Below the pieces are notes generated by a model. That model ran no database searches and had not been told where the DNA came from. It saw only the letters and a list, made by a program, of their open reading frames with translations. From Akkermansiaceae bacterium (GTDB lineage: Bacteria > Verrucomicrobiota > Verrucomicrobiia > Verrucomicrobiales > Akkermansiaceae), in the NCBI GenBank assembly GCA_947491475.1, contig CANLKN010000014.1, forward strand, positions 1 to 52,318: a stretch of DNA of 52,318 nt. The letters are read 5' to 3'. A program made the translations under genes and the position numbers. The first letter of the stretch is position 1; each line of letters begins with the position of its first letter. Of this stretch, positions 1-29,658 are shown in pieces.

Positions 1-3000
1 GTGTGGATGACGGAAGCATAGCCCATCTGGGCGCGGATGCCGGCGGCGATCAGATCGTCGGGAGCGGGTGCGCCCGCGATGCCCAAGCCGCCTTGGGGGA
101 TGATGTTTCGAAACAGGGTGTAATCCAAAACGCCGCCCGCCGACAGGCCATCAAAAACCGGATGCTGCGGCGCAAAGGTATCGCTGCGGTAATATCCACC
201 GACGACATCGATACCGGCCAGCCATCCTTTGGTCACGAGCGGCAGGAAGCCCAGGGGCTGGTCGCCCCGCGCGAAGACCGCCGGGGACAGGAACACGACA
301 GTGGACCCGCGGGCCATGCGTTGCGCGAGTTCACGGAAGGCCGCCAAATCCCCGCCACCAGTGCCGACCAGAATCAATTCGCGCTGGCTTGGAGGCTGTC
401 CGTCAAAGGGCCGGAAGCGGATTTTCTGCGTGGTGAGCCATTGGGCGAGTCCCGGGTCGTTGCCCCACAACACGACTTCCCGCTCCACTGGCGGCATCGC
501 GGCGGTATCGAAAACGTTGAATGTGATCTCCCCGCCCGTGGCAACCGCGCCGCGCTCGAAGTTGACAATGAACTTGTAGGTGCCCGCCGGGCCGCTCACC
601 GGAACATCGCGTGAAAATACTTCTTTGACGAACGGTTGCTCGATGGAACCGGCCGGAATGGTTAGATCCAACCTTTCTTCGAGAACCCGCCGTCCGTCGG
701 GCGCGACGACTTGGATGTGAACCGGATATTCCCCGGCACGCAGCGCATCAAAGTTTGAAAGGATAGCTTCGAGTTTCACCTTCCCGCCACTGAAGATGCT
801 CGCAGGTTCCGCGAACAGGCACCAGCGCAGCGGCGCGGTGAGATCACTCTGCAAATCCACGACGCCGGGCTTGAACTCGCGGAAGTTGTTGAGCAGGCCG
901 ACGCCATTGAAATCCGAGTCCACCAACGCACAAAAGTAATGGCCCGCGAGAAACGGGTTCGAGCGTAGCGCGTTGCCGGCCACGCGGCGCAGCTTGACCA
1001 TGTTATGCTCGCTGTTGGTGAAATAATCCTCGGGCGTCGTCCAGATCCGGCCGAGATCCCATTTCTTCCAATCGGCCATGAACTGGTCGAGCTTGTCGCG
1101 ATAGTAGCGGGCGTCATCCGTATATTCCGCGCCCATCTGCTCGTAGTGACGGGCGAAGCGCGGCAGGTTGACCGCGCAGGCCGAGCCGATTTCGGAGATC
1201 ACGATCTTGCGGCCCTCGGCGCGCTCTCCGAGTTTGCGCATCTGCTGGATCTCGGTCGCCGTGTAAGGCACAAGCGGATAAACATGCATGTCCCCTTTGA
1301 TTGGAAACTGGTTGCCGGACATCGCGCCGAAGTCCTGCCACCAGTTGGTATAACTTGGCTTGCCAGGCCCTTCCGCACCCATCAGGAACTGCCAGTCCAT
1401 CGCTCTGGGATTGCTTGTTGAGGCCTGACCGAACTGCATGTCGAATCCGCCGCTGTTGAGTGAAACGAAGCGGGTGTTATCGAGAAACTTCACGAGGGGC
1501 AGCGACTGCACGGCATGTTCGAACACCGGCGCTTCTTCTGCCGCTCCGGCCATTCCGGATTCGTTGAGCAGGGTCCAGATGACAATGCTGGGATGGTTGC
1601 GGTCGCGGCGGATCACCCCGCCGATCGAGGCATCGAATCGGCGGGCCATCTCGGGTCCGGGAGCAATCCGGTGTGCACCATAGTGTTCTTGCTGAACCAG
1701 AATCCCCATCTCATCAAACAGATCCATGTCGCGAGCGCGCAGGCCTCCCCAGATCACGCGAATCAAATTAAGCCCCATCGCTTTGGCCGCCACAAGATCG
1801 CGCCGCAAATAATCGGTGCCCGGCGGCACGCGGAACCCGACCGGGAAATGCGGGAGAATGAGCGCTCCCTGAAGATAGATTCTTTTGCCATTCAGGCGGA
1901 ACGACTCGTTTTCAAATCGGAAATCCCGGAACCCGAAACGCGTCGATTTTTCGTCAAACGACTCTGAATCCTTCGCCGCCGCTGTGACGGTCACACGATA
2001 TAGGAAAGGATCATCCAGATTCCACAGACGATGTTGGGGAACCTGCAAGCTGGCCCGCACCAGAGTATCACCGGGCGGCAGATCCGGAGTTAATAAAATG
2101 GCGGTGAGCGTTTCCCCGTTCGTTGGGGGTGCCACGCTAACCCGGATGTTGCCTGCGATTGTTTTGTCAGAGGCATTGCGCAGGTTGAGGTCGATGGTCA
2201 CCTCGCCGGTTTTCCAATCAGGTTTGGCGAAAACATTTTCCACGCGCACGGTTGGAGTGGCCAGCAGCTCGACCGAATCCACAATACCGCCCACGTTGTA
2301 AACCGAGCCGGGTGTGAGCGGATAACCTTTGATGCCCCGTGGCGTGTCTCCAAGGCCGATGCCATCAATGGGCTCCACCGTGGGGTTCAGCACGCGCACG
2401 GCGAGCAGGTTCTTGCCGCCGGGTTTGACCGCATCGGTCACATCAAATTCAAACGGAGACTCTGCCCCCTCGTGTTGGCCGACTTTCACCTCATTGACCC
2501 AGACCTCGGCCATGTAATCGACCGCGAGGAAACGCAGGATGAAACGCCCGTTTTCATGCGGGTTCGCCACAACATCAAACTCGCGCCAATACCATGCCAC
2601 TCCATGATAGCTTGGAAAGACATCCTGGATGATCCACGGCACCTTGGTCGGCTTCGCATCGGGTTGCGGGGCGTTGAACCACTTTTCCTCGCGCCCGACA
2701 TTCTTTGGATCAGTGGCGATTTTCCACATATCTCCATCGAGAGAGAGCGTCGTTGTCGGCTGAGAGCCCAATGAAACCGTCTTGGCGGCGGGTGCGGATT
2801 TTCCTGCAGCCCCACCGAGAACGGCAAAAGTGACTGTGGCCGGTGCCATGGGATTTTCGCCGGCTGACCCTGCGATGGAGGGTTGGCAGGTCAGGCGGTA
2901 GTAGCCCTCCGGCAATGGCAGGCGCAGCGTCTGCTTGAAGCCGCCTTTGGAAGTCAACTCCCCCGGTGGAATGGCGACGGGTTTTCCGGCATGATCCACA

Positions 3001-4379: not shown

Positions 4380-4474
4380 GGCTTGGTTCTGATGGGTATT
4401 GCGTTTGGCGGGGCGTTCCTGAAACAGGAGATGGGCCGGTTGGGAGTAATTGGGAATGAGTGGTGATGCTTTTT

Positions 4475-5941
4475 TCAGCGACGCAGTTCGATGCGGCGCA
4501 CATCGGCAGTGCCATCGGTGGCGGGCAGGCGCAGGCGTAGTTGTTTCATGGCACCCCGGTAGGCTGGGTTTTCGGAGAGTTTCAGGATGTGTGTGTGCGG
4601 TTGGCCGTCGCCCGGCACGGTGAGGGGGATGATGATGGGCGGGGCGCAGGGGAAGGTTTTTTTCTTTTGGGCGGTTTCTTCGATGATGGTGGGACTGGCC
4701 ACCTCCCACGCGGGAAAGTCAGTGAGGTCGGCGGGTTCAAAGGGCTGGATCTCCACGTCCACCTGCGTGGTGGGCGTCGCTGAAGTGAAAGCGGCTTCAA
4801 TCTCCAGGATCGGCGCGTCGGCGGCCTGCCAGTGAATTTCATCGGAAATCATCGCGCCACGCGGAGCGGCTTTGTGGGTGATCTTGAGGCCGTTCCGGAT
4901 CGGCCAACCCGCATCGCTGGCGTTTTCATAGATCCAGCCAAGGCGCTCGTTGGTGAACTTCCACGCGAGTGCCTTGCGCGGCTGCATGCTGGCATGGGCG
5001 CGGATCTCATCGAGCGTGCCGACGACGATGTGCGTGCTGTAGCTTAGGTCGATATTGTGATCGAGGATGCGCATGGCACCGGCTGAGAGGTAGCCGGCCT
5101 GGTCGTCCTGCGGGCCGCCTTTGCCTTTGAGTTCATTGCCGCCGGCGAAGCCGCCGACAAAGGAGCAGGTGTCCGGCTGGAACAGGCCCACGCCCCAGTC
5201 TTCTTCATCCACCAGCGCGGCCCAGTGCTCCGGCGCATGCCATGTGGCCCAGGCGCTGGTGGGCCAGCCCTTCACCTCGGTTTTTCCCACCACCGTGGTC
5301 AGCGGTGCCTGGGTGAAAGGGGCATCGCCGAGGTAGCTGACGAGGCGATACCACGGGCCGTTGGTGTAGAGCGCGGGCATCTCCTGGTTGCAGGCCGGAT
5401 ACTGGGTCTTGTCGAGACGGCGATTGATGATGCGGCCCTGCATTTCCACCACGTTGTCGCCCACGAGCCGGTAGGTGGTTTCGAAGTCGCAGTCCGCCGG
5501 GAGATTGGCATGGGCGAACTGCATGGGGATGCAGCGCACGCGCATAAAGTCCTGCCCGCGTTCGAACCCGGTGGTCTGTGAGGGCACTCGCGCCACACTT
5601 CCAGCTTGGATGGGATTCCACCCCAGTCCTGCCCAGGCGGGCTCCGGCGTTTCGCCATTCGGCCCGATGAAGGGTTTCGGCCCCGAGTAAAACGAAAGCT
5701 GAATCTGGCGGCCCCAGTCAAAGCTGTTGATCATGTTGCCGCTCTTGCGCCGCTTGTCTTCCAGATAAGTGACCGCGCCGCCTGCCCCGAGGTGGATGCC
5801 GAGCTTGAGCCGGTCGTTTTCCAGATAACGCATGGGTTCCGCTGCGATGGACGCCGGATCGAGTGGTACGGACGGCGGCTCTGCGGCCAAGAGAGGACCG
5901 CATGCGGTGATGATAGCGAGGATGATCGTGCGAGGTGACAT
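4475..5941 (-). CDS. Unrecognised secreted 488-residue protein of the GH locus
   Basis: I do not recognise this family with certainty. The protein begins with a signal peptide (MSPRTIILAIITACGPLLAAE) and has no membrane segment after it. Its body is rich in Trp, Tyr and Gly, with distinctive strings such as NMINSFDWGRQIQLSFYSG, AWAGLGWNPIQAG and FMRVRCIPMQFA. Residues such as DCDFETTYRLVGDNVVEMQG look like a beta-sandwich of the kind seen in galactose-mutarotase-like or polysaccharide-acting proteins. It lies between two GH2 genes, 89 bp after one and 95 bp before the next, on the same strand. It is therefore probably a secreted carbohydrate-active protein of the same pathway, either an enzyme of an unassigned family or a binding protein. 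Function is inferred from context only. Confidence 0.8.
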   Translation of the reverse strand: MSPRTIILAIITACGPLLAAEPPSVPLDPASIAAEPMRYLENDRLKLGIHLGAGGAVTYLEDKRRKSGNMINSFDWGRQIQLSFYSGPKPFIGPNGETPEPAWAGLGWNPIQAGSVARVPSQTTGFERGQDFMRVRCIPMQFAHANLPADCDFETTYRLVGDNVVEMQGRIINRRLDKTQYPACNQEMPALYTNGPWYRLVSYLGDAPFTQAPLTTVVGKTEVKGWPTSAWATWHAPEHWAALVDEEDWGVGLFQPDTCSFVGGFAGGNELKGKGGPQDDQAGYLSAGAMRILDHNIDLSYSTHIVVGTLDEIRAHASMQPRKALAWKFTNERLGWIYENASDAGWPIRNGLKITHKAAPRGAMISDEIHWQAADAPILEIEAAFTSATPTTQVDVEIQPFEPADLTDFPAWEVASPTIIEETAQKKKTFPCAPPIIIPLTVPGDGQPHTHILKLSENPAYRGAMKQLRLRLPATDGTADVRRIELRR

Positions 5942-6030
5942 GGGGTGGCGTTGATGAGCAATGAGCGGGGGTGTGAGGCTACCGTCTTCGGAGTGGTTAC
6001 ATCTATTCAGGATAATCTTCCATCAGCGCT

Positions 6031-9000
6031 TCATTCGTATCCGATCGCTTTGAGTTGCTGATCGAAATCCGCTGGCAACTCCGCCAGTGGCTGGTCGAGA
6101 TCGCGGGCCGCGTAGTTGAGCATGTTGCGCAGGAGACGCTCGGCGGCAGGATCGGTGCCGAGGTTTTCGAGGATTTGGAGATTGTTGAGAATGAAGCGGC
6201 CGGCACCGAGTTTGTAAACGCCCACGTGAAGGCCGGAGGCATAATCGAGACTGGCATTGATCGCGCCCGACACCGCCTCGTCTGGTGGTTGAATGTTCAT
6301 CATGACTGTTTCGTAGGGGATGAGGTTCTTATAGTAAGCCATGTTCATGATTCCACCGGCTGGCATTCCGGCAAAAATGGGATGGTTTTTTGCCCAATCG
6401 TCCTTGCGGTAGTATCCGACGCAACAGTTGATGTCGGCTTGAAATCCCTTTCTTGCGAAGGGAGCGAAATCCAGGTTGAGAAGAGGCCTGACAAATGGCG
6501 CAAGCGGTCCATCAACCCCAGGTGGCTTGCTCTTGTTATGAAACACGTCCGCCGACAGAAATACGGCGGAGGAGCCCTGCGCGATCCGGCTGGCAAGCTC
6601 GGTGAATTCCGCCAGCGTGCCTGTGCCGAATGCTTTTGTTGAAACGAGGATGAGTTCGCGAGTTCCGGCAACTCCCGCCACGTAGGGACGTGACTTGATC
6701 CCATTTGCTCCCAGCCATTGGGAAAGCGGTGCATCCTCGCCCCACAGGACGGCCTCAATGGGCACGGGCGGCATGTCCGTCTTTCTGGTTACATGAAATG
6801 TTTGCCGGTCCGCCTTCGCGTAGCCGCCCTTCTCCAACGTGGCAAGAAACTGATAGGCGCCGGATGGGCCGTCGATGAATACCTCTTCACTTAGCACCGG
6901 AGTAACGAATGGCGAACCCTCGATCTCCCTAATCCGCATCTCGACCTGTTTTTCAAAGACCATGCGGTTCTGAGGGTCAAGCACCTGAAAGCGGACGGGG
7001 TAAGTTCCCGCCGTAAGGATTCCATCGTTTGAGAGCAGTGCCTCCAGTTTGATTTTCTTGCCACTGTAGAGCTGGGCCGGTTCGGCGAACAAGGACCAGC
7101 GAAGCGGTGCGTTTGCATTCGTCATCGCATCGAAATTCCCGGTTTTCACATCCCTGAAAAACGTGATGACTCCGACGCCATCGATTGCATGGTCGTGCAT
7201 GGCACAGATGAAAAGAGCTGTGAGAGTTGGATTCGCTCGAAAGGCATTGGCAAGGTCGATTCGAATTTTCGCGAGGTTCTCCCAACTGTCGTTGAAGAAT
7301 TCCTCCGGCCGGGCCCACGTTTCGGAAAGGTTCCACTTTTCCCAATCCGTCATGAACTGGTCGAGTTTTGCCTGTGCCCAAAGCGCATCCGGCGCGTCGG
7401 CTGCGCCCATTTGTTCGAAATTCCGGACAGTGTTGATCAGGTGGTTGGAGGAACCGGTTCCACTCTCGGTGATTAAGAGGGGTGCCGTGGAGCCGACGGT
7501 CCGGATATTGTCTGCAACCACCTTGGTGAGCGGCAAGGGCTGGTAGAGGTGGGAATCGTTCAGTAGGGAATCCCAGGTGTTTGATCCGGCATTGCTCAGG
7601 TTGTTGGTGTTGGGGGATATGTTTAGATCCGATACTTTGTTGTCCGTTGTAGCGACTGCATGGCTCATCCCACTGTTGAGAAGGGCAATCCGCGTGCTGT
7701 CCACATGTCTCACCAGCGGCAGCATGTCCTTTGCAAGGGCGAGCATGTCCCCTTGGGCCGTTTCATTGAGCAGCCCCCACACCACAATACTCGGGTGGTT
7801 ACGGTCGCGCGCAAAGGTTTCCGCCCACGTATTGATCCACCGCTGGCGCTTCTGGCTGTCCATGGCATGGAGCGCATGGCTGTTCTCCCCGAAACCTCCA
7901 GCAATCGCCGGCACGGGTGCGACGGAATTCAAGCCCTCTCGAAACACCAGGACACCCATTTCGTCATACAAGTCCAACAATTCCGTCGGCATGACTCCGA
8001 TCACGTGCCTGACGGCATTGAAGCCCATGGCTTTGAGATTGGTGACTTCTCGCCGAAGAAGTTCTTTGTCCACGATGGAAAACTTCCCTGGAAAACAAGG
8101 CACCGTGATCACGGCCCGCAGCATCAGCTTCTTTCCATTCAAGGCGAAGGCATCCTTTTCGAAACGAAACTCGCGCAAACCGAATCTCACGGAAGCTTCA
8201 TGAATCGCCGGGGAGTCAGATTGCCGCACGCCGACTTGCAGAGTGTATAAAAAAGGATTCTCCAAGTCCCAGAGCACAGGGTTTTCGATTTTCAGCGTGG
8301 TGGTGATGATGTTGACACCGGGTTCGAGTTTTCTATCTTCGGAGACTTGGGAAGCCGAGGTTCCTCCCAGTGTTGGTCTAGCGGTATAGTTTATCCGGGC
8401 AGTTGCTGCGGCCTCATTGGTGTTCACGACCGTGGCGTCGATTTCAACTTCCCCGGTTTTGATGTTTGGACGAGCAAAGATGTCCCGGACGAAAACGGAA
8501 GGCGTGATCTCCAAAGCGACGGACGCTGTAATTCCGCCATCGTTATAGAAATACCCGGGCGTGTAGCTGTTGGTCTTATAACCCACAGGCACATTAGCCA
8601 GTGAGAGACCGTCGATGGGAGTGGTCGTGACGTTGAGAACCCGGACGGCAAGCCGGTTGGTTTCACCGGGTTTGATGACTTGCGTCGCATCCACCTCGAA
8701 GGGACTTTCAATGCCTTCGTGAGTCATCAGGTGCATCCCGTTTACCCAGACGTCGGCCTTGTAATCGACCGTTTGAAATTTGATCAGGTATCTGCCGTTC
8801 TTATTGGGATTCAAAGGGGCCTGGAAATCAAGCCAATACCATGCCACTCCGTGATAATCGCGGAACACGGATTGGATATTGCCAGGCACCGTCGCGGGCT
8901 TGGCCTCCTTCACTGGTGCTTGGAACCATTTCTCCGCGACGCCGATGTTTCCAGGATCGGGGGCGAGAAGCCAGTTCGCGCCGTCTAGTGGAAACGTCTG

Positions 9001-10080
9001 CTTGGTTTGTGAGTTCGCCGCCGCAGGCTTTGATGCAGATTCGGCGAGGACCGAGAAGTGGAGCGTGGATGCCTTGAGGGTGGCGTTCTTCATTGGCACG
9101 GTGGGTTGAGAGGTAAGGCTGTAGAAACCTGGCGGCAATGTGAGACGGAGGCTTTGCTTGAAACCATTTGCCGCAGTCAACTCCACCGTTGGGATCATCG
9201 TCTTTTCGCCAGCCAAGTTCACGCATTCGAAGTTCACTTGGATTCCCCCGGATGCTGTATCGAGTGCTCCATCTCCGGTGCCGACTTCGATCACCGGTGG
9301 ATTCGCCGGGTCGAAAATCCTGGATGCCGTCGCAGCCGTTAGACTCACGCTGGTATTGTTTGCCATGGCCTCTGCCTTTTGTTCAGCCGTCACCTCCGGG
9401 TGGATTTTATCCAAGGCCCGATTCCAAATGCGGAATTCCGAGATGGCTCCCCGGAAACAGCGGTCTTCAAGCGGAAAGCCCAGCCCGATCCGAAAGCTCG
9501 ATGGACGTGGGACGACTGGCGAGGTCGCCGGGACGGTATCCATCCGCTCGCCGTTCAGGTAGAATGACAGATCCCGCGGCGTTTTTACGATGGCGATATG
9601 TTGCCAGCGATCCGCTGCCAACTGGATCGGTTTGGTGGCAATGAAACCACCCGCACCAGTGCCATAGCTAAAAGCATAGCGGTTCGGGCTGCCTCCGTCT
9701 TGCTGGAGCACGACTCCCAGGGCTTCGCCCGTCACGCTGTTTTCGTGGTTGCCGAAGATGTTCGCATTGACGGCCTGTTGCGCGGCGGGCTTGACCCAGC
9801 ATTCGATCGTGAACTCATCACCCAGCGCGGGCAGATTTGCAGCGGCCTCTACCCAGTCACCGACACCATCAAATACGAGTCCGGCTCGTCCTTCCACGTC
9901 TGCGAAGGCCGGATTCCCATGCACCTTGCCATGAAAGTTCCCGCCCGAGGTATCGTTCACATCTTTTGCGAGCGGGTATTCGAGCAAAAGGCCGTCACGG
10001 TTCAGCGGCGTGTGGTCGGCGGCTACGGCCGGGCCACACGCAATGGCAAAAGCAATGAGCATTGAAAGGAGATGTTTCAT
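6031..10080 (-). CDS. Secreted LamG-GH2 glycoside hydrolase, paralogue 2 (most divergent)
   Basis: This 1349-residue protein starts with a signal peptide (MKHLLSMLIAFAIACGPAVAA) and goes directly into a LamG domain (about residues 25-240, LVFDGVGDWVEAA). It lacks the N-terminal domain of paralogues 1, 3 and 6. The GH2 sugar-binding, Ig-like and TIM-barrel domains follow. The acid/base is E773 (VVWGLLNETAQGD) and the nucleophile E872 (LLITESGTGS). It is the outlier of the set: the barrel has IGVMPTELLDLYDEMG where the others have a GGLR-type segment ending DLDLFDE, and the nucleophile is followed by SNHLINTV instead of NLPR. The C-terminal domain and its ending IGYE are conserved. It is separated by 37 bp from the gene upstream, so it may be translated independently of the coupled block. 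A distinct substrate is likely. Confidence 0.88.
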   Translation of the reverse strand: MKHLLSMLIAFAIACGPAVAADHTPLNRDGLLLEYPLAKDVNDTSGGNFHGKVHGNPAFADVEGRAGLVFDGVGDWVEAAANLPALGDEFTIECWVKPAAQQAVNANIFGNHENSVTGEALGVVLQQDGGSPNRYAFSYGTGAGGFIATKPIQLAADRWQHIAIVKTPRDLSFYLNGERMDTVPATSPVVPRPSSFRIGLGFPLEDRCFRGAISEFRIWNRALDKIHPEVTAEQKAEAMANNTSVSLTAATASRIFDPANPPVIEVGTGDGALDTASGGIQVNFECVNLAGEKTMIPTVELTAANGFKQSLRLTLPPGFYSLTSQPTVPMKNATLKASTLHFSVLAESASKPAAANSQTKQTFPLDGANWLLAPDPGNIGVAEKWFQAPVKEAKPATVPGNIQSVFRDYHGVAWYWLDFQAPLNPNKNGRYLIKFQTVDYKADVWVNGMHLMTHEGIESPFEVDATQVIKPGETNRLAVRVLNVTTTPIDGLSLANVPVGYKTNSYTPGYFYNDGGITASVALEITPSVFVRDIFARPNIKTGEVEIDATVVNTNEAAATARINYTARPTLGGTSASQVSEDRKLEPGVNIITTTLKIENPVLWDLENPFLYTLQVGVRQSDSPAIHEASVRFGLREFRFEKDAFALNGKKLMLRAVITVPCFPGKFSIVDKELLRREVTNLKAMGFNAVRHVIGVMPTELLDLYDEMGVLVFREGLNSVAPVPAIAGGFGENSHALHAMDSQKRQRWINTWAETFARDRNHPSIVVWGLLNETAQGDMLALAKDMLPLVRHVDSTRIALLNSGMSHAVATTDNKVSDLNISPNTNNLSNAGSNTWDSLLNDSHLYQPLPLTKVVADNIRTVGSTAPLLITESGTGSSNHLINTVRNFEQMGAADAPDALWAQAKLDQFMTDWEKWNLSETWARPEEFFNDSWENLAKIRIDLANAFRANPTLTALFICAMHDHAIDGVGVITFFRDVKTGNFDAMTNANAPLRWSLFAEPAQLYSGKKIKLEALLSNDGILTAGTYPVRFQVLDPQNRMVFEKQVEMRIREIEGSPFVTPVLSEEVFIDGPSGAYQFLATLEKGGYAKADRQTFHVTRKTDMPPVPIEAVLWGEDAPLSQWLGANGIKSRPYVAGVAGTRELILVSTKAFGTGTLAEFTELASRIAQGSSAVFLSADVFHNKSKPPGVDGPLAPFVRPLLNLDFAPFARKGFQADINCCVGYYRKDDWAKNHPIFAGMPAGGIMNMAYYKNLIPYETVMMNIQPPDEAVSGAINASLDYASGLHVGVYKLGAGRFILNNLQILENLGTDPAAERLLRNMLNYAARDLDQPLAELPADFDQQLKAIGYE

Positions 10081-10117
10081 GATTGTGTGATGATCGATGT
10101 TTTAAGAACTGTATTTC

Positions 10118-20200: not shown

Positions 20201-21281
20201 CGTCATTCAGAACGGCGAAGCTGAGTGTCGCGGGTTGCAGGGGTCGGTCGCCGAGCGGGCCGGTGATCGTGGGCTTGCAGGTGAGCCGATAGTAACCCGC
20301 CGGCAGCGGCAGGCGCAGCGTCTGCTTGAAGCCGCCTGCGGAAGTCAATTCCACCGGCGCGACGGCGGGCGTCTTGCCGGTCAGGTCCACGCATTCAAAG
20401 GCGGCCCTGCTCGCGACATCGCTTTTCCCGATCGCCCCGTCCCCGAAGCTCACTTCGATGGCTGGCTGGTCGGGAAGTTTGAAGATCCGGTCCGGAGACG
20501 CGGCGCTCAGACGCGCGCTGGCATTATTCGCCCAGGCCTCCAACTTCTGTTCCGGCGTAACCTCTGGCAGGATTTCGCTCAACGCCCGATTCCAAATGCG
20601 AAACCCGGAGAGGGCCCCGTTGAAGCATCGCCCTTCGTCCTCAAAGCCCAGCCCGACGCGAAAAGTCAGCGGACTGGGGGCGACCGGCACGGTTGCGGCG
20701 ATGCTCTCCAACAGCACGCCGTTGAGGAAGACCTTGAGTTCTTCCGGCGATTTCACAATCGCGACATGCTGCCATTGCCCGGCCACCAGCTTGATCGGCT
20801 TGGTGTTGATCCATCCGCCCGATGAAGACGGAATCGCCAGCAATTGCGCTCCATCCGCGCCGATGCGGTAGCTGAACGCGTAGCAATTGGTATTGCCCGC
20901 GTCCTGCTGGAGCACCAAGCCCCCGCCGGACGTATGGTTGCCAAAGATGTTCGCATTCGCAGCTTGTTGCGCGGCGGGCCTCACCCAGCACTCGATGGTG
21001 AACTCGTTGCTCAGCGCGGGCAGCTTGGCATCGGCTTCCACCCAGTCGCCGACGCCGTCGAACACCAAACCGGCCCGCCCGTCCAAAGCCTCGAAGCGGG
21101 GATTGCCATGCAACGTGCCGTGAAGGTTTTGCCCGGAACTGTCGCTCGCATCCTTATCTAATCGATATTCGAGAAGCAAGCCGTCGGCCGGTGGCGTTGG
21201 CGGAACCGGGGTGGTCTCCGCGGCCAAGGCGGAGACGGCGAGCGCGGCAAGGATTGTCAGTCTGGCGAGGGTGGTTTTCAT
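17205..21281 (-). CDS. Secreted LamG-GH2 glycoside hydrolase, paralogue 4
   Basis: This 1358-residue protein has a signal peptide (MKTTLARLTILAALAVSALA) followed straight away by a LamG domain (about 30-250, LVFDGVGDWVEAD). A linker, GH2 sugar-binding domain, Ig-like domain (YNVGGIVDTVELLATP) and TIM barrel follow. The acid/base is E779 (VIWCLLNEQWPG) and the nucleophile E896 (KIVISESGAG). The final 225 residues form the conserved C-terminal domain ending in IGYE. Its start overlaps paralogue 5 by ATGA (21278-21281) and its stop overlaps the alpha-galactosidase start (17205-17208). Its loop between the two glutamates carries a unique FNYPDGCGPMWNN segment, unlike any neighbour, which suggests its own substrate preference. 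Confidence 0.88.
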   Translation of the reverse strand: MKTTLARLTILAALAVSALAAETTPVPPTPPADGLLLEYRLDKDASDSSGQNLHGTLHGNPRFEALDGRAGLVFDGVGDWVEADAKLPALSNEFTIECWVRPAAQQAANANIFGNHTSGGGLVLQQDAGNTNCYAFSYRIGADGAQLLAIPSSSGGWINTKPIKLVAGQWQHVAIVKSPEELKVFLNGVLLESIAATVPVAPSPLTFRVGLGFEDEGRCFNGALSGFRIWNRALSEILPEVTPEQKLEAWANNASARLSAASPDRIFKLPDQPAIEVSFGDGAIGKSDVASRAAFECVDLTGKTPAVAPVELTSAGGFKQTLRLPLPAGYYRLTCKPTITGPLGDRPLQPATLSFAVLNDDGGEPLAVPAPKTATLGAQPTLVTSLDGEGWLLATDPNNIGRTEQWFNAPRPEAKPTKVPWIIQDVFPNYHGVAWYWKEFTAPANPHDQGRFVLRFWAVDHLAEVWVNGVRIGQHEGSEDPFEFDVTDALKPGMTNRLAVRVLNPTEDGVDGIKRSEIPNNLRFSPITPGKTYNVGGIVDTVELLATPVVRVENLYVKPDWKTGRIQIEASLRNAGNKPLPTAVRFAVGSANSGETLNVALLTQELPPGDTVVRASLVVAQPRLWDLEDPFLYRVAAQAGVAGSPSVDEKTTRCGFRDFRYENDAFRLNGKRIYMQGVVLLPHYPVGFRLPPREDYLRRDLVAAKAMGLNTIRVIWGGLRARDLDLFDELGILVQQEHYGAIQIVPSPELPRRFDASFSGVIRRDRNHPSIVIWCLLNEQWPGPLFSHAVQTLPLVKYLDDTRLVWLASGGLDLQLSQGSLSNPGATGWQCLMGSESPDGPTFNYPDGCGPMWNNLGPIKADVHPYQPVPFTAVQIELMRTLGKHALPGRKIVISESGAGCAVNLPRLARHYEQMGAAGADDAVYYRDKLEQFMGDWEKWNLGRIWTSPEDYFTDSERNMVKLRLESSNALRANPYLAGYQFCALPDSDFNGCGLLNNFREFKPGVVELQNDVTAPVRWCLFAEPVNISSGGKLKLEAVLSNLDALRPGSYPVRIEVVAPDGRRMLEEKITLDVPDPKTSGEPPLVREVFSREVPVSGPTGAYKFLVQFERGAAATGGAIPFNVFNLADMPAVDREVVLWGNDEGLAKWLADHKIRSRPYSSAAPAQRELILVGTGGGDLAAFRELAQRMARGSAVVFLSPAVFARGDQPLAFLPLATKGPLTWIDVCAGYYRGDTFALPHPVFAGLPAQGILDYTFYRNIIPQGGYGLAGAPVPDDLIAAAIRAQFGYASVIQTASYNFGAGRFIFNTLKIRENLGTDPVAELLLRNMLNYAARDIDKPVAELPADFDQQLKVIGYE

Positions 21282-24200
21282 TCGTATCCGATGGCTTTGA
21301 GTTGTTGCAGAAAATCAGCGGGCAGATCAACTGGGGCTTTGTCGAGATCGCTCGCGGCGTAGTTGAGCAAATTGCGAAGTATCAACTCCGCGACCGGATC
21401 TTTGCCGAGTTCATCGCGGATGCGCAGGGTGTTGAAAACAAAACGTCCGGCTCCGAATGGGTAGGATGCCATTTGCACCACCGAACCGTAGCCGACCTGC
21501 GCGCGGATGCCGCCGACGATCAACTCATCGGGAACGGTCGCATCCTTCAAGCCGATGCCACCTTGCGTGATGATGTTGCGGAAAATGGTATAGTCGAGGA
21601 TGCCGCCGGATGGCAGGCCATCGAAGACCGGATGCTTCGCGGCAAAGGTGTCCCCGCGATAGTAGCCGCCGGAGTCGCTGGGAGTGAGCGTGCCTTTGTT
21701 GGCCAGCGGCAGGGCCGCCAATTGCCGGCTCTCCACTGCCACGTTTGCAAAACCGCCGAGCAGTCCCGCACCACCCACTGCCATCTGATCCGGCGAGAAG
21801 ACCGATGGAGTCAAAAAGATAACCGTCGATCCGCGGGCCATCCGCGTGGCCAGCGCTTTGAACGCGGCGGCGTCGCCGCTGCCATTCCCGACAAGGATCA
21901 ACTCCCGCTTGTCGGTTTCCACCGGAGTGAAGGGACGCGTGCGGATGCCATGATCCGCCAGCCAGGCGGCCAGTTCATTGTCCTTTCCCCATAACACCAC
22001 TTCCGTGTTAACTGCCGGCATCGCCTTGGCATCGAAGACTTGGAACGTGATTTTCTCCCCGGCGGCGGCGACGCCTTGTTTGAACTCGACGATGAACTTG
22101 TAGGTGCCAGTAGGGCCATCGATTTTCACTTCTTTGGAAAGCACTGGATGCACGAACTCCGGACGCTCCTCCCACGTGGGGATCTTGACGACGAGATCCT
22201 CTTCAAAAACCCGGCGGCCATCCGGCGCGACGACCATCGCACGCGCCGCATGATCTCCCGGCGGCAGGACATCCAGATTCGAAAGCACGGCCTCAAGCTT
22301 CACCGTGGAGCCGCTGTATAGGTTCACCGGCCCGGCAAACAAGGACCAGCGCACCGGAGCGGTGAGATCGTTCTGAAGCTCGACGACGCCTGGTTTATAC
22401 TCGCGGAAAAGATTGAGCAGGCCGACGCCGTTGAAATCCGAGTCCGGCCCGGCGCAGAAGAGATACCCCGCAAGGTGCGGATTTGCGCGAAGCGCATTGC
22501 CGGTTTCACGGCGGAGTTTGAGCATGTTCCGTTCGCTGGCGACGAAGAAATCCTCGGGACGGGTCCAGATGCGATTGAGTTTCCATGCTTCCCAATCAGT
22601 TAGAAATTCATCCAGCCGGGCCCGATAATAACGGGCGTCCTCGGCGTGAGTGGCTCCCATTTGTTCATAAAGACGGGCGAAACGCGGAAGGTTCACCGCA
22701 CAACCGGTGCCGATCTCGCTGATGACGATCTTGCGTCCGGGAGCGGTGGAGCCAAGCGTGCGCATGCGTTCGATCTCCGCGGCGGTGTGGGGGATGGACT
22801 GATAGGGATGCAGGTCGGCTTTGGCCGGACCAGTGCCGCCAACCATCGCGACGTAGGCGGGCCACGTGAAGGGGATCTTCGGACCATCCGGATTTTCGTT
22901 GCCCATAAGGTGCTGCCATTCCTTCGCTCCCGGATTGCTCAACGAGCCTTGCGAGAGATCGAGGTCGAACCCGCCGCTGTTGAGCCAATAGACGCGCGTG
23001 TCATCCAATTGCTTCAACATAGGCAGCGAGTCAACGGCATGGCGGAATTGCTGGCCATCGAGTATCTCGTTCAGCACACCCCAGATCACGATGCTGGGAT
23101 GATTCCGATCGCGGCGAATGACTCCGCCGATGGAGTCATCGAACCGGCGGGGCATCGCGGGGCCGTCCGTCATGTGAACCGCGCCGTAATGCTCCTGTTG
23201 AACCAAGATGCCGAGTTCATCGAACACGTCGAGATCCCGCGCCCGGAGGCCGCCCCAAATGATGCGGCAGATGTTCAACCCCATCGCCTTCCACGCCACC
23301 ACATCGCGGCGCAGGTAGTCTTCATTTGGTGAAACCCGAAAACCGACCGGATACATCGGCAGCATCAGCGCGCCTTGCAGATAGATGCGCTTGCCATTGA
23401 GTTGAAAGGAGCCGTCCTCGTAGCGGAAATCGCGGAAGCCGCAGCGCGTTGACCTTTCATCGATGGAAGGCGAACCCGCGACGTTGGCAAGAACGCTCAC
23501 GCGATAGAGAAACGGATCGTCCAGCGACCAAAGCCGCCACTGGGGAACCATCAACTCTCCGACGACGATCGTGTCGCCCGGAGGTGCTTCGGATTCGAGA
23601 ACGATGGCCTGAATCGTCTCTCCTTCCTTGGCCGGAGCGATGGCCATCCGCGTCAAAACCTTGAGCGGATTTTTACCGGCATTGCGCAGGGTGGCCACTA
23701 CCTGCGCGCGGCCGGTTTTCCAATCCGGGATGACATGAAGATTCTCCACTCGCACGGACGGGACGGCCAGCAGTTCGACCGAGTCCACGATGCCGCCGAC
23801 ATTGTAAATCGTCGCCGCCCGGAGCGGATAGGTTTTTGCGCTCCGTGGGACGTCGCCCAATGAAATGCCGTCGATGGGTTCATTGGTTGGATTCAACACG
23901 CGGACTGCGAGGAGATTGGCCTGGCCGGGTTTCACGGCATCGGTCACATCCAGTTCAAAGGGAGCCTCCGGCCCCTCGTGCTGGCCGACGCGGATGCCAT
24001 TGACCCATACCTCGGCAAGGGAATCGACCGCGAGAAAACGCATGATATATCGGCCATCCGCATGAGGATTTGCAGGCGCGGTGAACACCCGCCAATACCA
24101 GGCGACGCCGTGATATTCCGGAAAAACATCCTGGATGATCCACGGCACCTTGGTGGGTTTCGCATCCGCAGTCGGTGCGTTGAACCATTGTTGCTCGCGT

Positions 24201-25027
24201 CCCGTGTTTTGTGGATCGGTGGCGATTTTCCAATCATTGCCATCGAGATTCAGAGTCACTGCGGGTTGCGAGCCGTGGGGGGCGTCCTTTGGCGGCACGA
24301 CCTGAACGGTAAGTGCAGGGACAGCGGCAAGGGGCTGGGAAATTTGAATGGAAAGCCCGATGGCATCTTTATCGGGACCGTTCTCACCGGCCCATATGAG
24401 GAAATCGAGTGTTTCGTTTTCCTGGAGATCCAACGCCGACACTTCACGCATATAAGCTCCATCGGCGGGGATGCCTTTTCCATCGAATAAAATCGTTTGC
24501 TGCGGCGTGCCGAAATTGCGCAGCACATAGATCATCGCACTGGCCTCCGGGTGCAGGCGGATCGCCGAAACATCCACGCCATAAGCGGCGGAAGCCGGTG
24601 CCGTCCAGCGCACACAGGCGACATCCGCCTCCCCGATATGGCCGGATTGACCCTCCGCATACCCGGGGTGCACGAGCACGCTGCCTGGCGGGACGGCAAA
24701 TCCATAGATGCCCACGGGACCAGTGGATGCATTCCGTGCGATCAGCGGAGCATTTGCAGGATGATCCTTGGCTGCCCAGCCACGCAGTCCCGCGAGACCA
24801 AGAAGATCTTGGGCCGGTGAGAGCGGGTTGAAAGTTGGTGATCCATAGGTGCTAAACCCGAAACTCCATGTTCGGTCATTTGCTTCATGGGCGGGGAAAT
24901 CCCGGGCCAGATTCCAGTCCGTTTTGTTTTCACCGTTTGCACAGTGAATCATCATGAGAAAAGGACACAATATGCGGATCCAGAGCTTAGGCATACTTTT
25001 CACGAGCAGGTGTGTGATGGCTCTCAT
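21278..25027 (-). CDS. Secreted GH2 glycoside hydrolase lacking LamG, paralogue 5
   Basis: This 1249-residue member keeps the N-terminal beta-rich domain (about 37-235, WSFGFSTYGSPTF) but passes directly from it to the GH2 sugar-binding domain near residue 265, so the LamG domain is absent. The acid/base is E654 (VIWGVLNEILDG) and the nucleophile E771 (KIVISEIGTG). The chosen ATG at 25027 overlaps the stop of paralogue 6 by ATGA. It gives a long n-region before the hydrophobic stretch; an internal Met at residue 12 (MPKLWIRILCPFLMMI) would give a more normal signal peptide and is the alternative start. The C-terminal domain has an extra segment (ALATRMARG to VAVESRQLAALPLANKG is longer than in the paralogues) and ends in IGYE. 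Confidence 0.86.
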   Translation of the reverse strand: MRAITHLLVKSMPKLWIRILCPFLMMIHCANGENKTDWNLARDFPAHEANDRTWSFGFSTYGSPTFNPLSPAQDLLGLAGLRGWAAKDHPANAPLIARNASTGPVGIYGFAVPPGSVLVHPGYAEGQSGHIGEADVACVRWTAPASAAYGVDVSAIRLHPEASAMIYVLRNFGTPQQTILFDGKGIPADGAYMREVSALDLQENETLDFLIWAGENGPDKDAIGLSIQISQPLAAVPALTVQVVPPKDAPHGSQPAVTLNLDGNDWKIATDPQNTGREQQWFNAPTADAKPTKVPWIIQDVFPEYHGVAWYWRVFTAPANPHADGRYIMRFLAVDSLAEVWVNGIRVGQHEGPEAPFELDVTDAVKPGQANLLAVRVLNPTNEPIDGISLGDVPRSAKTYPLRAATIYNVGGIVDSVELLAVPSVRVENLHVIPDWKTGRAQVVATLRNAGKNPLKVLTRMAIAPAKEGETIQAIVLESEAPPGDTIVVGELMVPQWRLWSLDDPFLYRVSVLANVAGSPSIDERSTRCGFRDFRYEDGSFQLNGKRIYLQGALMLPMYPVGFRVSPNEDYLRRDVVAWKAMGLNICRIIWGGLRARDLDVFDELGILVQQEHYGAVHMTDGPAMPRRFDDSIGGVIRRDRNHPSIVIWGVLNEILDGQQFRHAVDSLPMLKQLDDTRVYWLNSGGFDLDLSQGSLSNPGAKEWQHLMGNENPDGPKIPFTWPAYVAMVGGTGPAKADLHPYQSIPHTAAEIERMRTLGSTAPGRKIVISEIGTGCAVNLPRFARLYEQMGATHAEDARYYRARLDEFLTDWEAWKLNRIWTRPEDFFVASERNMLKLRRETGNALRANPHLAGYLFCAGPDSDFNGVGLLNLFREYKPGVVELQNDLTAPVRWSLFAGPVNLYSGSTVKLEAVLSNLDVLPPGDHAARAMVVAPDGRRVFEEDLVVKIPTWEERPEFVHPVLSKEVKIDGPTGTYKFIVEFKQGVAAAGEKITFQVFDAKAMPAVNTEVVLWGKDNELAAWLADHGIRTRPFTPVETDKRELILVGNGSGDAAAFKALATRMARGSTVIFLTPSVFSPDQMAVGGAGLLGGFANVAVESRQLAALPLANKGTLTPSDSGGYYRGDTFAAKHPVFDGLPSGGILDYTIFRNIITQGGIGLKDATVPDELIVGGIRAQVGYGSVVQMASYPFGAGRFVFNTLRIRDELGKDPVAELILRNLLNYAASDLDKAPVDLPADFLQQLKAIGYE

Positions 25028-28000
25028 TCGTATCCGATGGCTTTGAGCTGTTGGTCGAAATCCGCAGGCAGAGGGGCAGGAGATTTACCGGCATCAGGCG
25101 CGGAAAATTTCAGCAAATTGCGAAGCAGCAACTCGGCCACCGGATCCTTGCCGAGGTTTTCGCGGATCTTCAGCGTGTTGAAGACGAACTTGCCCGCGCC
25201 GAATCGGAACGCGGCGGTTTGCACGTTCGAGCCATAGCCCATTTGGGCACGGATGCCGCCAACGATCAGATCGTCCGGTGCCTCGATGCCCGACAATCCC
25301 GGGCTCCCATGGCCAATGATGTTGCGATAGAGCGTGTAGTCGAGGATTCCGCGTCCGGGCAACCCGTCGAAAATCGGATGACCGGTTCCAAAAGTATCAC
25401 CCCTGTAGTAGCCGCCAGCGAGATCGAGAATTCCGAGCGTTCCCTTGGTTTTCAGCGGGAGCCAGCCCAGAGGTTGGTCCGCGCGGGCAAAGACCGCCGG
25501 GGACAGGAAGATCACGGTCGAGCCGGTGGCGATGCGTCGCGCAAGATCCTGAAAGGCGGGCAGATCACCTCCGCCATTCCCGACCAAGATAACTTCGCGT
25601 TTAGAGCTCTCGCCGGGCACATAAGGTCGGGTGCGGATTCCATGTGTTGCCAGCCATGCCGCCAGTTCAGGATCGGCTCCCCAGGGCACGATTTCCCCAT
25701 CGACTTCAGGCATCTCGGCCGCATCAAAAACCCGGAAGCTTGTCTCGCCGCCCGAGGCCACGGCGCCACTCTCGAAACCAACCCGCACCTGATAGATTCC
25801 GGATGGGGAATGGACCGGCAGGTCTTTGGTGAAAAGGGGGCGGACCCATGGCGGTTCCCCGTCTTTGGGCTGTGGCGGAACGTTCACGTTCAGTAATTCG
25901 TCGAGCATCCGCGTGCCATCGGGAGCGGACACCTCAACACGCACGGGATAATCACCGGCAGGCAGGGCGTCGAGATTGGATAGCACGACGTCGATCTTCA
26001 CGGTTCCACCGCGATAGATATTCACCGGATCCACAAACAGCGACCATCGCACCGGGGCCGTGAGATCCTGCTGAAGGTCCACCACGCCGGGTTTGAACTC
26101 GCGGAAAAGGGTTAGCATCCCGACGCCGTTGAAATCGGAATCGGTGAGCGCGCAGAAGTAAGAGCCTGCGAGGTGCGGATTTCCGCGCAGGGCATTGCCG
26201 GTTTCCCGGCGGAGGTTCAGCATGTTCCGCTCGCTGTTGCGGAAGAAGTCTTCCGGCTGGCTCCAGACTCGGGAGAGTTTCCATGCATCCCAATCGGCCA
26301 TGAACTTGTCGAGTTTGTCGCGAAAATACACGGCATCGTCGGCACCGGTTGCTCCCATCTGCTCATAGTGGCGCATGACCCGCGGCAGGTTGATCGCGCT
26401 GCCGGTGCCGATCTCGGTGATCAGGATCTTGCGGTCCGGAGCCACGGAGCCGAGTGTGCGCATGCGCTGGATCTCGGCGGCGGTGTGGGGAACGTTCTGG
26501 TAGGCGTGGATATCGGCCTTGATGTCGCCCTTGTTATCCTGCATTGACATATAATCCCATGGCCAGACGAGTTCGGGGCCGTCGGGCCGTTCGCTGCCCA
26601 TCAAGTGCTGCCATGTGGTGGCACCCGGATTGCTGAGCGAACCGATGTGCATTTGCAGATCAAAGCCGCCGCTGTTGAGGAAGTAGGGGCGGGTGTCGTC
26701 GAGGGATTTTACGAGCGGAAGGATTTGCACCCCATGACGATATTGCGGGCCGTCCCAGATTTCATTCATCACGCCCCACATGACGATGCTCGGGTGGTTG
26801 CGGTCGCGGCGGACCATGCCGGAAATGGAGGCGTCGAACCTGCGCCCAAGCTCCGGGGAGGGAGCCATGTGAATGCCGCCGAAGTGCTCCTGCTGGACCA
26901 TGATTCCCAACTCATCGAAGAGATCGAGGTCGCGGGACCGCAAGCCGCCCCAGATGAGGCGGATCATGTTCAGACCCATCGCCTTCGCAGCCACGAGGTC
27001 GCGGCGCATGAACTCCTCGCGCGGAGACACGCGATGACCAATCGGGTAGTGCGGGAGGATGAGTGCGCCCTGCAAATAGATGCGCTTGCCGTTCAGGCGG
27101 AAGGCATTGTTTTCAAAACGGAAATCCCGGAATCCGCAGCGTGTGGATTTTTCATCGAACGATGGTGAACCCGCTGCCGCGACCTGCACGCTCACGCGGT
27201 AGAGGAATGGATCTTCCGGACTCCAGAGGCGGACATCCGGCGCTGTCACTTCGCCCTCGATCCGCGTGTCTCCCGGCGGAATCTCGCGTTGATACGCGGC
27301 GGCATCGAGTCCTTCGCCACCGAGGGCAGGAGAGATCGTGAAGCGTGTTGTCACCTTGACCGCGCGGTCGGAAGCATTTCGCAAGTTTGCCTCGATGCGG
27401 ACGCGACCGGTTTTCCAATCCGGTTTGACGGAGATGTTTTCCACGCGGACTGATGGCACTGCGAGAAGTTCGACCGAGTCCACGATGCCGCCGACATTGT
27501 AGATGGTGCCCGGGCTGAGCGGATAGTGTTTCGCGCTGCGGGCCGTGTAGCCGAGCGCGATGCCATCGATCGGCTCGTGGGTCGGGTTGAGCACGCGCAC
27601 GGCGAGTTGGTTGTTGGCTCCGGGCTTGATGGCAGCCGTCACATCAAACTCAAAAGGATCCACAGAGCCTTCGTGCTGGCCGACTTTCTGCCCATTTACC
27701 CACACCTCTGCAAAATAATCCACCATCTGAAACCTGAGAATATACCGGCCTCCGGCAGCTGTATTCTTGGGTGCGGAAAACTCCCGCCAATACCATGCGA
27801 CGCCGTGGTAGTTGGGGAAAATGTCCTGGATGATCCATGGCACTTTGGTGGGCTTGGCATCCGCAGTCGGGCCGTTGAACCACTTTTCTTCACGTCCGAC
27901 ATTTTTGGGATCAGTGGCGATTTTCCATGCCTCTCCATCGAGCGATGTCACTAGCGTTGCCAGCGTGCCTATTTCCGAGGCCTCGACCGGTGTGCCTGCT

Positions 28001-29658
28001 GTGATGTGCCCCGCCGAATCGCCGAGCACGGAAAACGTGAGGGTGACCGGGCTCAGATCCCGCATGCCGTTTGGTCCGGTGACCGACGGGCGGCTGGTGA
28101 GCCGGTAATATCCGCTTGGCAAATCCAGCTTGAAGGTCGAAGCAAATTGGTTCTTCGCATTAAGCTCCAAGCCGGGGACCGGAAAGGATTTGCCGGTATC
28201 ATCCACGCAATCGAAGGTGGAGCGGATCGGAGGCCCGTCCACTGCGGCAAAGCTGGCCTTGATGGACGGAGGATTCGCGGCATTGAAAATACGCGAGGGA
28301 TCCAGAGCTTCGAGGCTCACGCTGGAATTGTTGACCAGCGCCTCGAACCGCTGCTCCGCCGTGACCTGTGGCTCGATGGCAGTCAGCGCGCGATTCCAGA
28401 TTTTCAGACCGGAAAGCGCGCCACGGAAGAAACGGTCTTGTGACTCAAAGCCCTGCCCGATGCGGAAGTTCACCGGGCCTTGCACGACGCCGTGCGCGGC
28501 CGGCACCGCATCCACCAAAACGCCGTTCAGGTAAAACTTCAGATTCTTGGCTGATTTGACAATTGCGACATGTTGCCAGCGATCAGCGGCGAGTTGAATC
28601 GGCTTGGTGGATGTCCATGCTCCAGCGCCATTGCCCATCACGAAAGCAAAGCGGTTCGTGTTGCCGCCGTCCTGCTGGAGCACCATGCCGGTGCCTCCGG
28701 CACCGTGGTTGCCAAAGATATCCGCGTTGACCGTTTGCTGCGCATCCGGCCGCACCCAGCCTTCGATGGTGAATTCCTTCCTCAACTCGGGAAGAGCCGT
28801 CCCGGTGTCCAACCAATCTCCGGTGCCATCAAAAACGAGGGCGTTCCTGCCATCGACCGCCGCGAAGACCGGGTTGCCATGCACGATCACTTCCCGGCTC
28901 GCACCCGCGAGATCCTTTGCATCCGCACCTAACGGAAAATCGATGAGCACGCGCGGTTTCGCCAGTTCCGGATCAGCGGGTGCGATTTGCACGGCGAGGC
29001 CGGTGGCATCATTGCCCGGCCCGTGCGCCGCCCACACCGCAAAATCCAGCGTGTCCTTTGCGGCCATCGAAAGCAAGGGCTCGGAAAACTCCACTCCGGC
29101 ACCCGGCGGCACATCCCTTCCCGGCATCAGGATTTCCTGATCCGGCTTGCCGAGCTGCCTGATGACAAAACCCGTGGTGCTGGCCGCGGGATCAAGTCTC
29201 CTGAGCGCGGCGTTCACCTGATAGATCCCATCGGCAGGCGCGACCCATCGCACATACACCACATCCGATGCATCGGTGCGTCCGACCGCAGGTGCGGCAA
29301 ACCCGGGATGCACCACAACCTCGCCCGCAGGAACGGTGAACCCCGACGCCCCCGCGGGAGCATTGGTCATGTTCTTCGCAACAAACGGGAAAGTCCCGGC
29401 TTCCACTGCCCAGCCATTGAGCCCGGGCACCGTGAGGATGTCCTTCGCCGCAGGCAATGGCGTGAGGGTTCTTCCTCCATAAGTGCTGAATCCATAGAAC
29501 CACGGACCATTCGGATTTTGTTCGGCGCTGAAATCCGCGGACAAGTTCCACGATCCCGCTTTTTCCGCCGCGTTTGAGAGGGTCGAGGCGGACAGCAAGA
29601 GAAGCGCTAGTTTCAAAAAGCGGCGGGACTTCTTCGGTGATTCCTTCCAGACACTCAT
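25024..29658 (-). CDS. Secreted LamG-GH2 glycoside hydrolase, paralogue 6 (first gene of the operon)
   Basis: At 1544 residues this is the longest complete member. It has a basic n-region and hydrophobic signal (RRFLKLALLLLSASTLSNA), an N-terminal domain at about 37-226, a LamG domain at about 237-430, a linker to about 560, GH2 sugar-binding and Ig-like domains, and a TIM barrel beginning near 850. The acid/base is E966 (IVMWGVMNEIWDG) and the nucleophile E1082 (KILITEIGTG). The final 225 residues are the shared C-terminal domain with ending IGYE. No coding sequence on this strand lies between it and the divergent gltX, so the operon promoter should be in 29659-29953. No strong Shine-Dalgarno precedes the ATG, as elsewhere in this window. 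Confidence 0.88.
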   Translation of the reverse strand: MSVWKESPKKSRRFLKLALLLLSASTLSNAAEKAGSWNLSADFSAEQNPNGPWFYGFSTYGGRTLTPLPAAKDILTVPGLNGWAVEAGTFPFVAKNMTNAPAGASGFTVPAGEVVVHPGFAAPAVGRTDASDVVYVRWVAPADGIYQVNAALRRLDPAASTTGFVIRQLGKPDQEILMPGRDVPPGAGVEFSEPLLSMAAKDTLDFAVWAAHGPGNDATGLAVQIAPADPELAKPRVLIDFPLGADAKDLAGASREVIVHGNPVFAAVDGRNALVFDGTGDWLDTGTALPELRKEFTIEGWVRPDAQQTVNADIFGNHGAGGTGMVLQQDGGNTNRFAFVMGNGAGAWTSTKPIQLAADRWQHVAIVKSAKNLKFYLNGVLVDAVPAAHGVVQGPVNFRIGQGFESQDRFFRGALSGLKIWNRALTAIEPQVTAEQRFEALVNNSSVSLEALDPSRIFNAANPPSIKASFAAVDGPPIRSTFDCVDDTGKSFPVPGLELNAKNQFASTFKLDLPSGYYRLTSRPSVTGPNGMRDLSPVTLTFSVLGDSAGHITAGTPVEASEIGTLATLVTSLDGEAWKIATDPKNVGREEKWFNGPTADAKPTKVPWIIQDIFPNYHGVAWYWREFSAPKNTAAGGRYILRFQMVDYFAEVWVNGQKVGQHEGSVDPFEFDVTAAIKPGANNQLAVRVLNPTHEPIDGIALGYTARSAKHYPLSPGTIYNVGGIVDSVELLAVPSVRVENISVKPDWKTGRVRIEANLRNASDRAVKVTTRFTISPALGGEGLDAAAYQREIPPGDTRIEGEVTAPDVRLWSPEDPFLYRVSVQVAAAGSPSFDEKSTRCGFRDFRFENNAFRLNGKRIYLQGALILPHYPIGHRVSPREEFMRRDLVAAKAMGLNMIRLIWGGLRSRDLDLFDELGIMVQQEHFGGIHMAPSPELGRRFDASISGMVRRDRNHPSIVMWGVMNEIWDGPQYRHGVQILPLVKSLDDTRPYFLNSGGFDLQMHIGSLSNPGATTWQHLMGSERPDGPELVWPWDYMSMQDNKGDIKADIHAYQNVPHTAAEIQRMRTLGSVAPDRKILITEIGTGSAINLPRVMRHYEQMGATGADDAVYFRDKLDKFMADWDAWKLSRVWSQPEDFFRNSERNMLNLRRETGNALRGNPHLAGSYFCALTDSDFNGVGMLTLFREFKPGVVDLQQDLTAPVRWSLFVDPVNIYRGGTVKIDVVLSNLDALPAGDYPVRVEVSAPDGTRMLDELLNVNVPPQPKDGEPPWVRPLFTKDLPVHSPSGIYQVRVGFESGAVASGGETSFRVFDAAEMPEVDGEIVPWGADPELAAWLATHGIRTRPYVPGESSKREVILVGNGGGDLPAFQDLARRIATGSTVIFLSPAVFARADQPLGWLPLKTKGTLGILDLAGGYYRGDTFGTGHPIFDGLPGRGILDYTLYRNIIGHGSPGLSGIEAPDDLIVGGIRAQMGYGSNVQTAAFRFGAGKFVFNTLKIRENLGKDPVAELLLRNLLKFSAPDAGKSPAPLPADFDQQLKAIGYE

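Follow-up and report, generated by a model that had tools for sequence, protein, structure and literature searches.

Six tandem giant GH2 paralogues and a GH36 enzyme form a probable operon in an Akkermansiaceae genome

Results

A row of eight genes on one strand

The window, the whole 52,318-nucleotide stretch analysed here, is contig C14 of a 3.89 Mb Akkermansiaceae genome assembled in 182 contigs. Among eight named genomes, its RF3 is nearest to that of an Akkermansiaceae MAG, at 65%, with four others at 58-63%. Eight genes on its minus strand follow one another in the transcription order g6, g5, g4, GH36, g3, g2, an unnamed 488-aa protein and g1. Their positions, and those of two domains discussed below, are as follows.

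25024..29658, minus strand: g6, first gene; 1544 aa; signal-like N-terminus, unnamed module, LamG, GH2 core and unnamed C-terminal domain
21278..25027, minus strand: g5; 1249 aa; GH2 with the N-terminal module, without LamG
17205..21281, minus strand: g4; 1358 aa; LamG-GH2
17208..17894, minus strand: C-terminal domain of g4; no Pfam or NCBIfam match; counterpart in all six GH2 proteins (that of g1 ends on contig C147)
14674..17208, minus strand: Melibiase-type GH36 of 844 aa with an NPCBM domain; its two catalytic Asp align with those of 2xn0
10118..14677, minus strand: g3; 1519 aa; module-LamG-GH2
14033..14620, minus strand: N-terminal module of g3; unmatched in Pfam and NCBIfam; g1, g5 and g6 carry it at the N-terminus as well
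6031..10080, minus strand: g2, the most divergent paralogue; 1349 aa; LamG-GH2
4475..5941, minus strand: unnamed-family protein, secreted-looking; 488 aa; AlphaFold model like GH174 endo-1,3-fucanases, with an extra strand-rich C-terminal part
3..4379 (contig edge), minus strand: g1; module-LamG-GH2; 1459 aa lie in the window, and contig C147 supplies the final 64 and the stop

This layout confirms what a sequence-only reading of the same DNA had described, namely six giant GH2 genes on one strand with only a GH36 gene and an unknown, secreted-looking protein between them. Four junctions in the row are 4-nt overlaps and the other three are gaps of 37, 89 and 95 nt, and the eight genes are probably one operon. 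All eight proteins begin with a hydrophobic, Sec-signal-like stretch, as judged by hydropathy alone, from which we infer that the set is extracellular, as had been claimed.

We found no transporter, sulfatase or regulator among the eight genes, and the locus lacks the SusC/SusD pair of a Bacteroidota-type PUL, again in line with the sequence-only reading. However, the only SusD model used, PF07980, matched neither the window proteins scanned nor any other protein of the genome, and the missing SusC/D is therefore not special to the GH2 locus. TonB plug domains gave five matches in the genome, none of them on the window contig.

On the right, the row is flanked by gltX on the opposite strand and then by sucC, sucD and nuo genes, with rpoN on the contig as well. 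On the left, the sequence-only reading had proposed to extend the contig; contig C147 starts with the same 149 exact nucleotides as the end of C14, supplies the missing residues and stop of g1, and carries no further GH2 beyond it. A purine nucleoside phosphorylase gene follows on the same strand about 200 nt past g1, and behind it lie a protein with weak glycosidase matches, a metallophosphatase and a tRNA-thiolation-type gene. Because C147 completes g1 and then continues with these other genes, the GH2-GH36 row ends with g1. Two minor features of C147 may be recorded here. The weakly matching protein (1340-3373, 678 aa) hits GH42M, GH29 and GHL6, all below cut-off. At about 339-461, right behind g1, lies a frame of 40 codons that is joined to it by the same ATGA overlap; it opens with MKTT like g4 and GH36, then meets a stop, and is perhaps the relic of one more gene.

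Six diverged copies of a single GH2 subfamily

Matches to PF02837 (GH2_N), PF00703 (GH2) and PF02836 (GH2_C) exceed the Pfam cut-off in all six GH2 proteins, which share the family architecture of an N-terminal jelly roll, an Ig-like domain and a TIM barrel. Around this core, Laminin_G_3 (LamG) is present in every copy except g5, and a module of about 190 residues stands at the N-terminus of g1, g3, g5 and g6. The C-terminal region is common to the six, and that of g6 has one weak Pfam match below cut-off. Pairwise identities range from 42.7 to 70.1%, or from 58.5 to 70.1% with g2 left out, a similarity well above chance and yet a divergence too great for an assembly duplicate.

We placed the copies in a GH2 tree of 32 rows, in which g2 was flagged because of its unusual composition, as were three distant rows because of their long branches. 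Five window copies (g1 and g3-g6), a further copy on contig C167 of the same genome and one Victivallales protein form a clade with 100/100 support. Within it, the six same-genome copies exclude the Victivallales protein (91/93), and g2 branches next outside the whole clade (93/92); neither of these two nodes was starred by the program. The six window proteins thus belong to a single GH2 subfamily, which supports the view of them as one set of paralogues. Rough dN/dS values among g1, g3-g6 and the C167 copy, taken over the GH2 core and C-terminus, lie between 0.08 and 0.21 with dS of 1.27-3.17, near saturation, and indicate that the copies are under purifying selection.

These values bear on whether the copies are simply redundant, duplication having served to make more of one exo-glycosidase without any sharing out of tasks. 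The uniform GH2 architecture and the purifying selection would suit such a reading, and tandems within an operon are a simple route to higher dose. Against this, the copies are only 43-70% identical with dS near saturation, which argues that they have been kept apart for long, and the appended modules vary from copy to copy. We consider plain redundancy unlikely.

Catalytic residues are kept and specificity marks are missing

All six proteins retain an acid/base glutamate in an NE motif and a nucleophile glutamate in an [ST]ExG motif, aligned with E413/E504 of E. coli UidA and E462/E538 of LacZ (Met counted), which we take to be the catalytic pairs of those enzymes. In an AlphaFold model of g6 (pLDDT 88.9, 20-row alignment) the two glutamates lie where barrel strands 4 and 7, as we count them, come to an end. 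The earlier claims that every copy keeps both glutamates and that none looks dead hold on this evidence; with both residues kept and purifying selection acting, we rejected dead or binding-only copies.

The residues that would point to a particular sugar are a different matter. The NxK carboxylate loop, presumably a mark of GH2 beta-glucuronidases, falls in a gap in the nine family rows aligned with UidA; a second MAFFT mode placed the end of UidA elsewhere, evidently wrongly, and NxK was absent there too. The His of the SHYP motif of UidA and LacZ has no counterpart in any of the 23 family rows viewed of 32 aligned, where the stretch reads IWGG or similar, and HMMER alignment pairs the same stretches. 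Additionally, the Tyr that follows the nucleophile is replaced by Ile, Ser or Thr in the six window copies, the C167 copy and the Victivallales protein (8/8), as against its presence in 20 of the 24 other rows, the remaining four having His, Phe, Ala or Gly. We assume this Tyr and the SHYP His to be active-site marks of LacZ-type beta-galactosidases. The loss of the Tyr is common to g2 and the other copies and so probably predates the duplications; beside an intact nucleophile it looks like a shift of specificity rather than decay.

With both of these marks missing, specificity cannot be read from the sequence, and the GH2 enzymes by themselves show no apparent galactose signature. None of the five GH2 proteins scanned with NCBIfam (g6 left out) reached an equivalog cut-off, the best model being GalA at 121-149 bits against a required 900. 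The best PDB match of g6 by sequence is a beta-D-galactofuranosidase; by structure it comes closest to beta-glucuronidases, with 20-25% identity, in a search dominated by residues 6-744 that barely covered the C-terminal GH2 domain. A Phocaeicola plebeius GH2 protein whose PDB title names no function, 8u01, aligned with the g6 model over 778 residues (model range 10-963 of 985; Z 21.9, rmsd 3.9) at 18% identity.

A GH36 enzyme with both catalytic aspartates recurs near this GH2 type

The GH36 protein matches PF02065 (Melibiase) above cut-off and carries an NPCBM domain. Its RFDYN and WRTD motifs align with WDMN and WASD of 2xn0, whose aspartates we take to be the nucleophile and acid/base, respectively. 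NCBIfam gives a single match, to a beta-L-arabinopyranosidase model and far short of the cut-off, and the target may accordingly be either alpha-galactose or beta-L-arabinopyranose. Of the loci read in other genomes, 23 in all, five (3/8 and 2/15; one of them weak, 24% identity) have a GH36 gene close to this GH2 type, a recurrent companionship; none was found in the other 18, some of which are short contigs and one of which, L096, holds fragments only.

The sequence-only reading had named a galactose-bearing heteropolysaccharide as the likely target. The GH36 enzyme, with both aspartates and its recurrence, keeps this plausible; the GH2 enzymes lend it no help, as they miss the beta-galactosidase and beta-glucuronidase marks. 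The same absence would be expected if the target were not galactose-based, the GH2 enzymes acting on some other beta-glycoside (a mannoside, uronide, glucosaminide or furanoside) and GH36 just trimming a side chain. The galactofuranosidase and beta-glucuronidase matches of g6 would also fit, as would the R-x-IWGG stretch, which may resemble that of GH2 beta-mannosidases. The recurrence of GH36 near this GH2 type tells against a non-galactose target, as does a sister locus in the same genome with three GH36 genes and GalM, and we hold it to be fairly unlikely.

The 488-aa protein resembles GH174 in fold

No Pfam or NCBIfam model matched the 488-aa protein even at E 10, and 29 of the 386 other genomes sampled from the phylum have a homologue at E<=1e-10. 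The best VIA-align matches of its AlphaFold model (pLDDT 85.1, 13-row alignment) are the GH174 endo-1,3-fucanases 8jd7 and 9k1g (Z 23.7, rmsd 3.9, 269 aligned; Z 22.3, rmsd 3.2, 256 aligned), followed by a GH38 at Z 17.8; Foldseek ranks GH38 first and GH174 second. The GH174 matches span residues to about 330, and the strand-rich remainder is barely covered. A profile of 13 homologues retrieved no GH174 chain at E<=10. The 13-row alignment has D75, E154 and E187 unchanged in every row; for the GH174 enzyme Fun174A, PMC11943901 lists D119, E120 and E218.

Eight genomic contexts of homologues were inspected, with ten proteins scanned against Pfam and the rest judged by eye. One homologue sits beside GH78 and a sugar transporter (genome G138), another beside sulfatases (G265) and a third near a class II aldolase and GH127 (G175); in the other five contexts, some of them short, we recognised no CAZyme. 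Since the fold match comes without a sequence match and the contexts are mixed, an endo-acting hydrolase is a lead suggested by the model. A bolder proposal would make the protein the founder of a new GH family, GH174-like in fold and cleaving the main chain of a deoxyhexose-rich glycan, with the six GH2 enzymes as a new subfamily whose sugar-binding site has changed and whose members divide the side chains among them by specificity; we put this forward as speculative and, taken as a whole, fairly unlikely.

Restricted distribution and a likely horizontal gain

Among 58 relatives (36 of the same genus and 22 of the same order), none gave a GH2 match at E<=1e-60 (best candidates, at most 9 per genome). 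When 386 other genomes were drawn from across the phylum, 16 passed the same threshold, and all but two of these 16 belong to other classes (best candidates, at most 2 per genome). Against named genomes, g6 as a single query found no match, and an alignment query found at least 582 relatives; the best 80 of these were kept, and 15 of their loci were read for gene content. Across the named genomes found, the subfamily is scattered among Armatimonadota, Hydrogenedentota, Planctomycetota, Acidobacteriota, Poribacteria and others.

The closest named locus among the matches listed is contig L096 of the Victivallales MAG isolate Loclat_bin-09902, 58% identical to g4 in amino acids and 71% in nucleotides over 2.9 kb. 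It shares with the window's genome a LamG-GH2, the GH36, there reduced to fragments, and another GH2 that groups with a GH2 on contig C19 (tree 100/99); unlike the window, the 26.7 kb read there has a single LamG-GH2 belonging to this clade. Its positions 3570-3669 are a 100-bp remnant of the 5' end of the window GH36 (86% nt identity), apparently a decayed copy of the same cassette. The simplest reading of these sequences would be horizontal exchange of a GH36-GH2 cassette, and the locus was likely gained in this way and then duplicated locally. Donor and transfer direction rest on MAG bins, and the resemblance of L096 may come from misbinning of one MAG contig. GC3 is 0.65-0.78 in the eight genes versus 0.71-0.83 in nine neighbours, a weak difference and no proof of transfer.

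The same facts could be taken to mean that the cluster came from another organism through binning or assembly. The closest relatives found lie outside the genus, and in ten same-genus gltX neighbourhoods (15-17 kb) no flanking gene is common, the other flank query proteins from the window and C147 being absent at E<=1e-15. Yet the cluster is contiguous with rpoN, gltX, sucCD and nuo genes, and gltX itself has its ten best matches within the genus at 81-84% identity. The GC3 of the row, though lower, overlaps that of its neighbours, and three more contigs from this bin hold sister copies (C167, C79 and, more distant, C19). We regard an artefact as very improbable.

Sister loci in the same genome

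Contig C167 carries a GntR/FCD regulator and the seventh LamG-GH2 copy, cut at its 3' end, and C79 starts with the tail of an eighth, distinct from that of C167. Directly behind this tail, C79 has a 2214-aa open frame (710-7351) with two GH78 rhamnosidase units. The C19 locus, whose GH2 copies are more distant than those of C167 and C79, comprises three GH2 barrel matches and one further GH2_N protein, a rhamnosidase-type protein, GH106, three GH36 (one 82% aa identical to that of the window), a sulfatase, GH43, GalM and a propeller-type sensor kinase. The genome totals are 18 GH2 barrel matches, 26 rhamnosidase-type 6-hairpin matches, many of them weak, and 31 sulfatase matches, all but one above cut-off and some of them split. 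The lack of sulfatases noted by the sequence-only reading therefore applies to the eight genes and not to the genome, which has one in the C19 locus itself.

Separately, a 187-bp stretch at window positions 51477-51663 is 76% identical to C79 7430-7616, just past the GH78 frame.

Discussion

Our preferred reading, to which we assign a probability of about 0.55, is that the row is one operon for the extracellular breakdown of a heteropolysaccharide, probably with galactose in both anomers and a deoxyhexose (rhamnose or fucose). The bacterium would export all eight proteins, and LamG and the other modules would keep the GH2 enzymes bound to the glycan. All six of these enzymes would act as retaining exo-glycosidases by the usual two-glutamate mechanism, each taking different beta-linked side or end residues, while GH36 would take off alpha-galactose (or beta-L-arabinopyranose) and the 488-aa protein may cut the backbone. 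The GH36-GH2 cassette probably arrived horizontally, tandem duplication then enlarging the locus. The C19 locus, with its closely similar GH36 and its GH106, GH43 and sulfatase, favours a target that contains galactose and deoxyhexose.

Loci of related composition are known. PMC8857213 describes Verrucomicrobiota MAGs in which sulfatases, GH36 and GH2 surround rhamnosidases, in PUL-like loci of diatom-bloom Verrucomicrobiota whose GH36 and GH2 enzymes are called likely galactosidases; putative sugar transporters are proposed in place of SusCD in some. In contrast to these loci, the window row has six tandem GH2, all but g5 with LamG, and lacks sulfatase, rhamnosidase and transporter genes. Freshwater Verrucomicrobia MAGs are rich in GH2, GH29, GH78, GH95 and GH106, with GH2, GH78 and GH106 among their ten most abundant families according to PMC5615132, a family profile similar to that of the window's genome; these MAGs have TonB-linked CUT loci, whereas the window contig gave no TonB plug match. 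The row is thus an extreme yet understandable form of the polysaccharide-degrading clusters known from Verrucomicrobiota-type bacteria.

While GH2 and GH36 around rhamnosidases were already on record for this phylum, no report of the size of the tandem, the change beside the nucleophile or the GH174-like companion came up in the literature searched. Titles and abstracts, a search with most subscription journals outside it, gave no published tandem GH2-GH36 LamG cluster from Verrucomicrobia. With six copies of one probable exo-glycosidase, long diverged but still side by side in one row, the locus offers a natural test of dose versus division of labour. The GH2 subfamily, whose specificity is not predictable from the members compared, is a direct bench target for the microbial turnover of complex polysaccharides, as is the family of the 488-aa protein, with its known fold and no Pfam or NCBIfam match.

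A permuted module elsewhere in the subfamily

The N-terminal module of the GH2 proteins also occurs in another position. In 11 of 19 GH2 rows tested (L064, L065, L066, L095, two of L096, L097, L098, L101, L102 and L035) it sits inside the TIM barrel, between the acid/base and the nucleophile. There its head follows its body, a circular permutation relative to the N-terminal module of g1, g3, g5 and g6; in L102 the head is marginal. A head-first copy, its order judged by eye, is a separate protein on contig C46 of the same genome.
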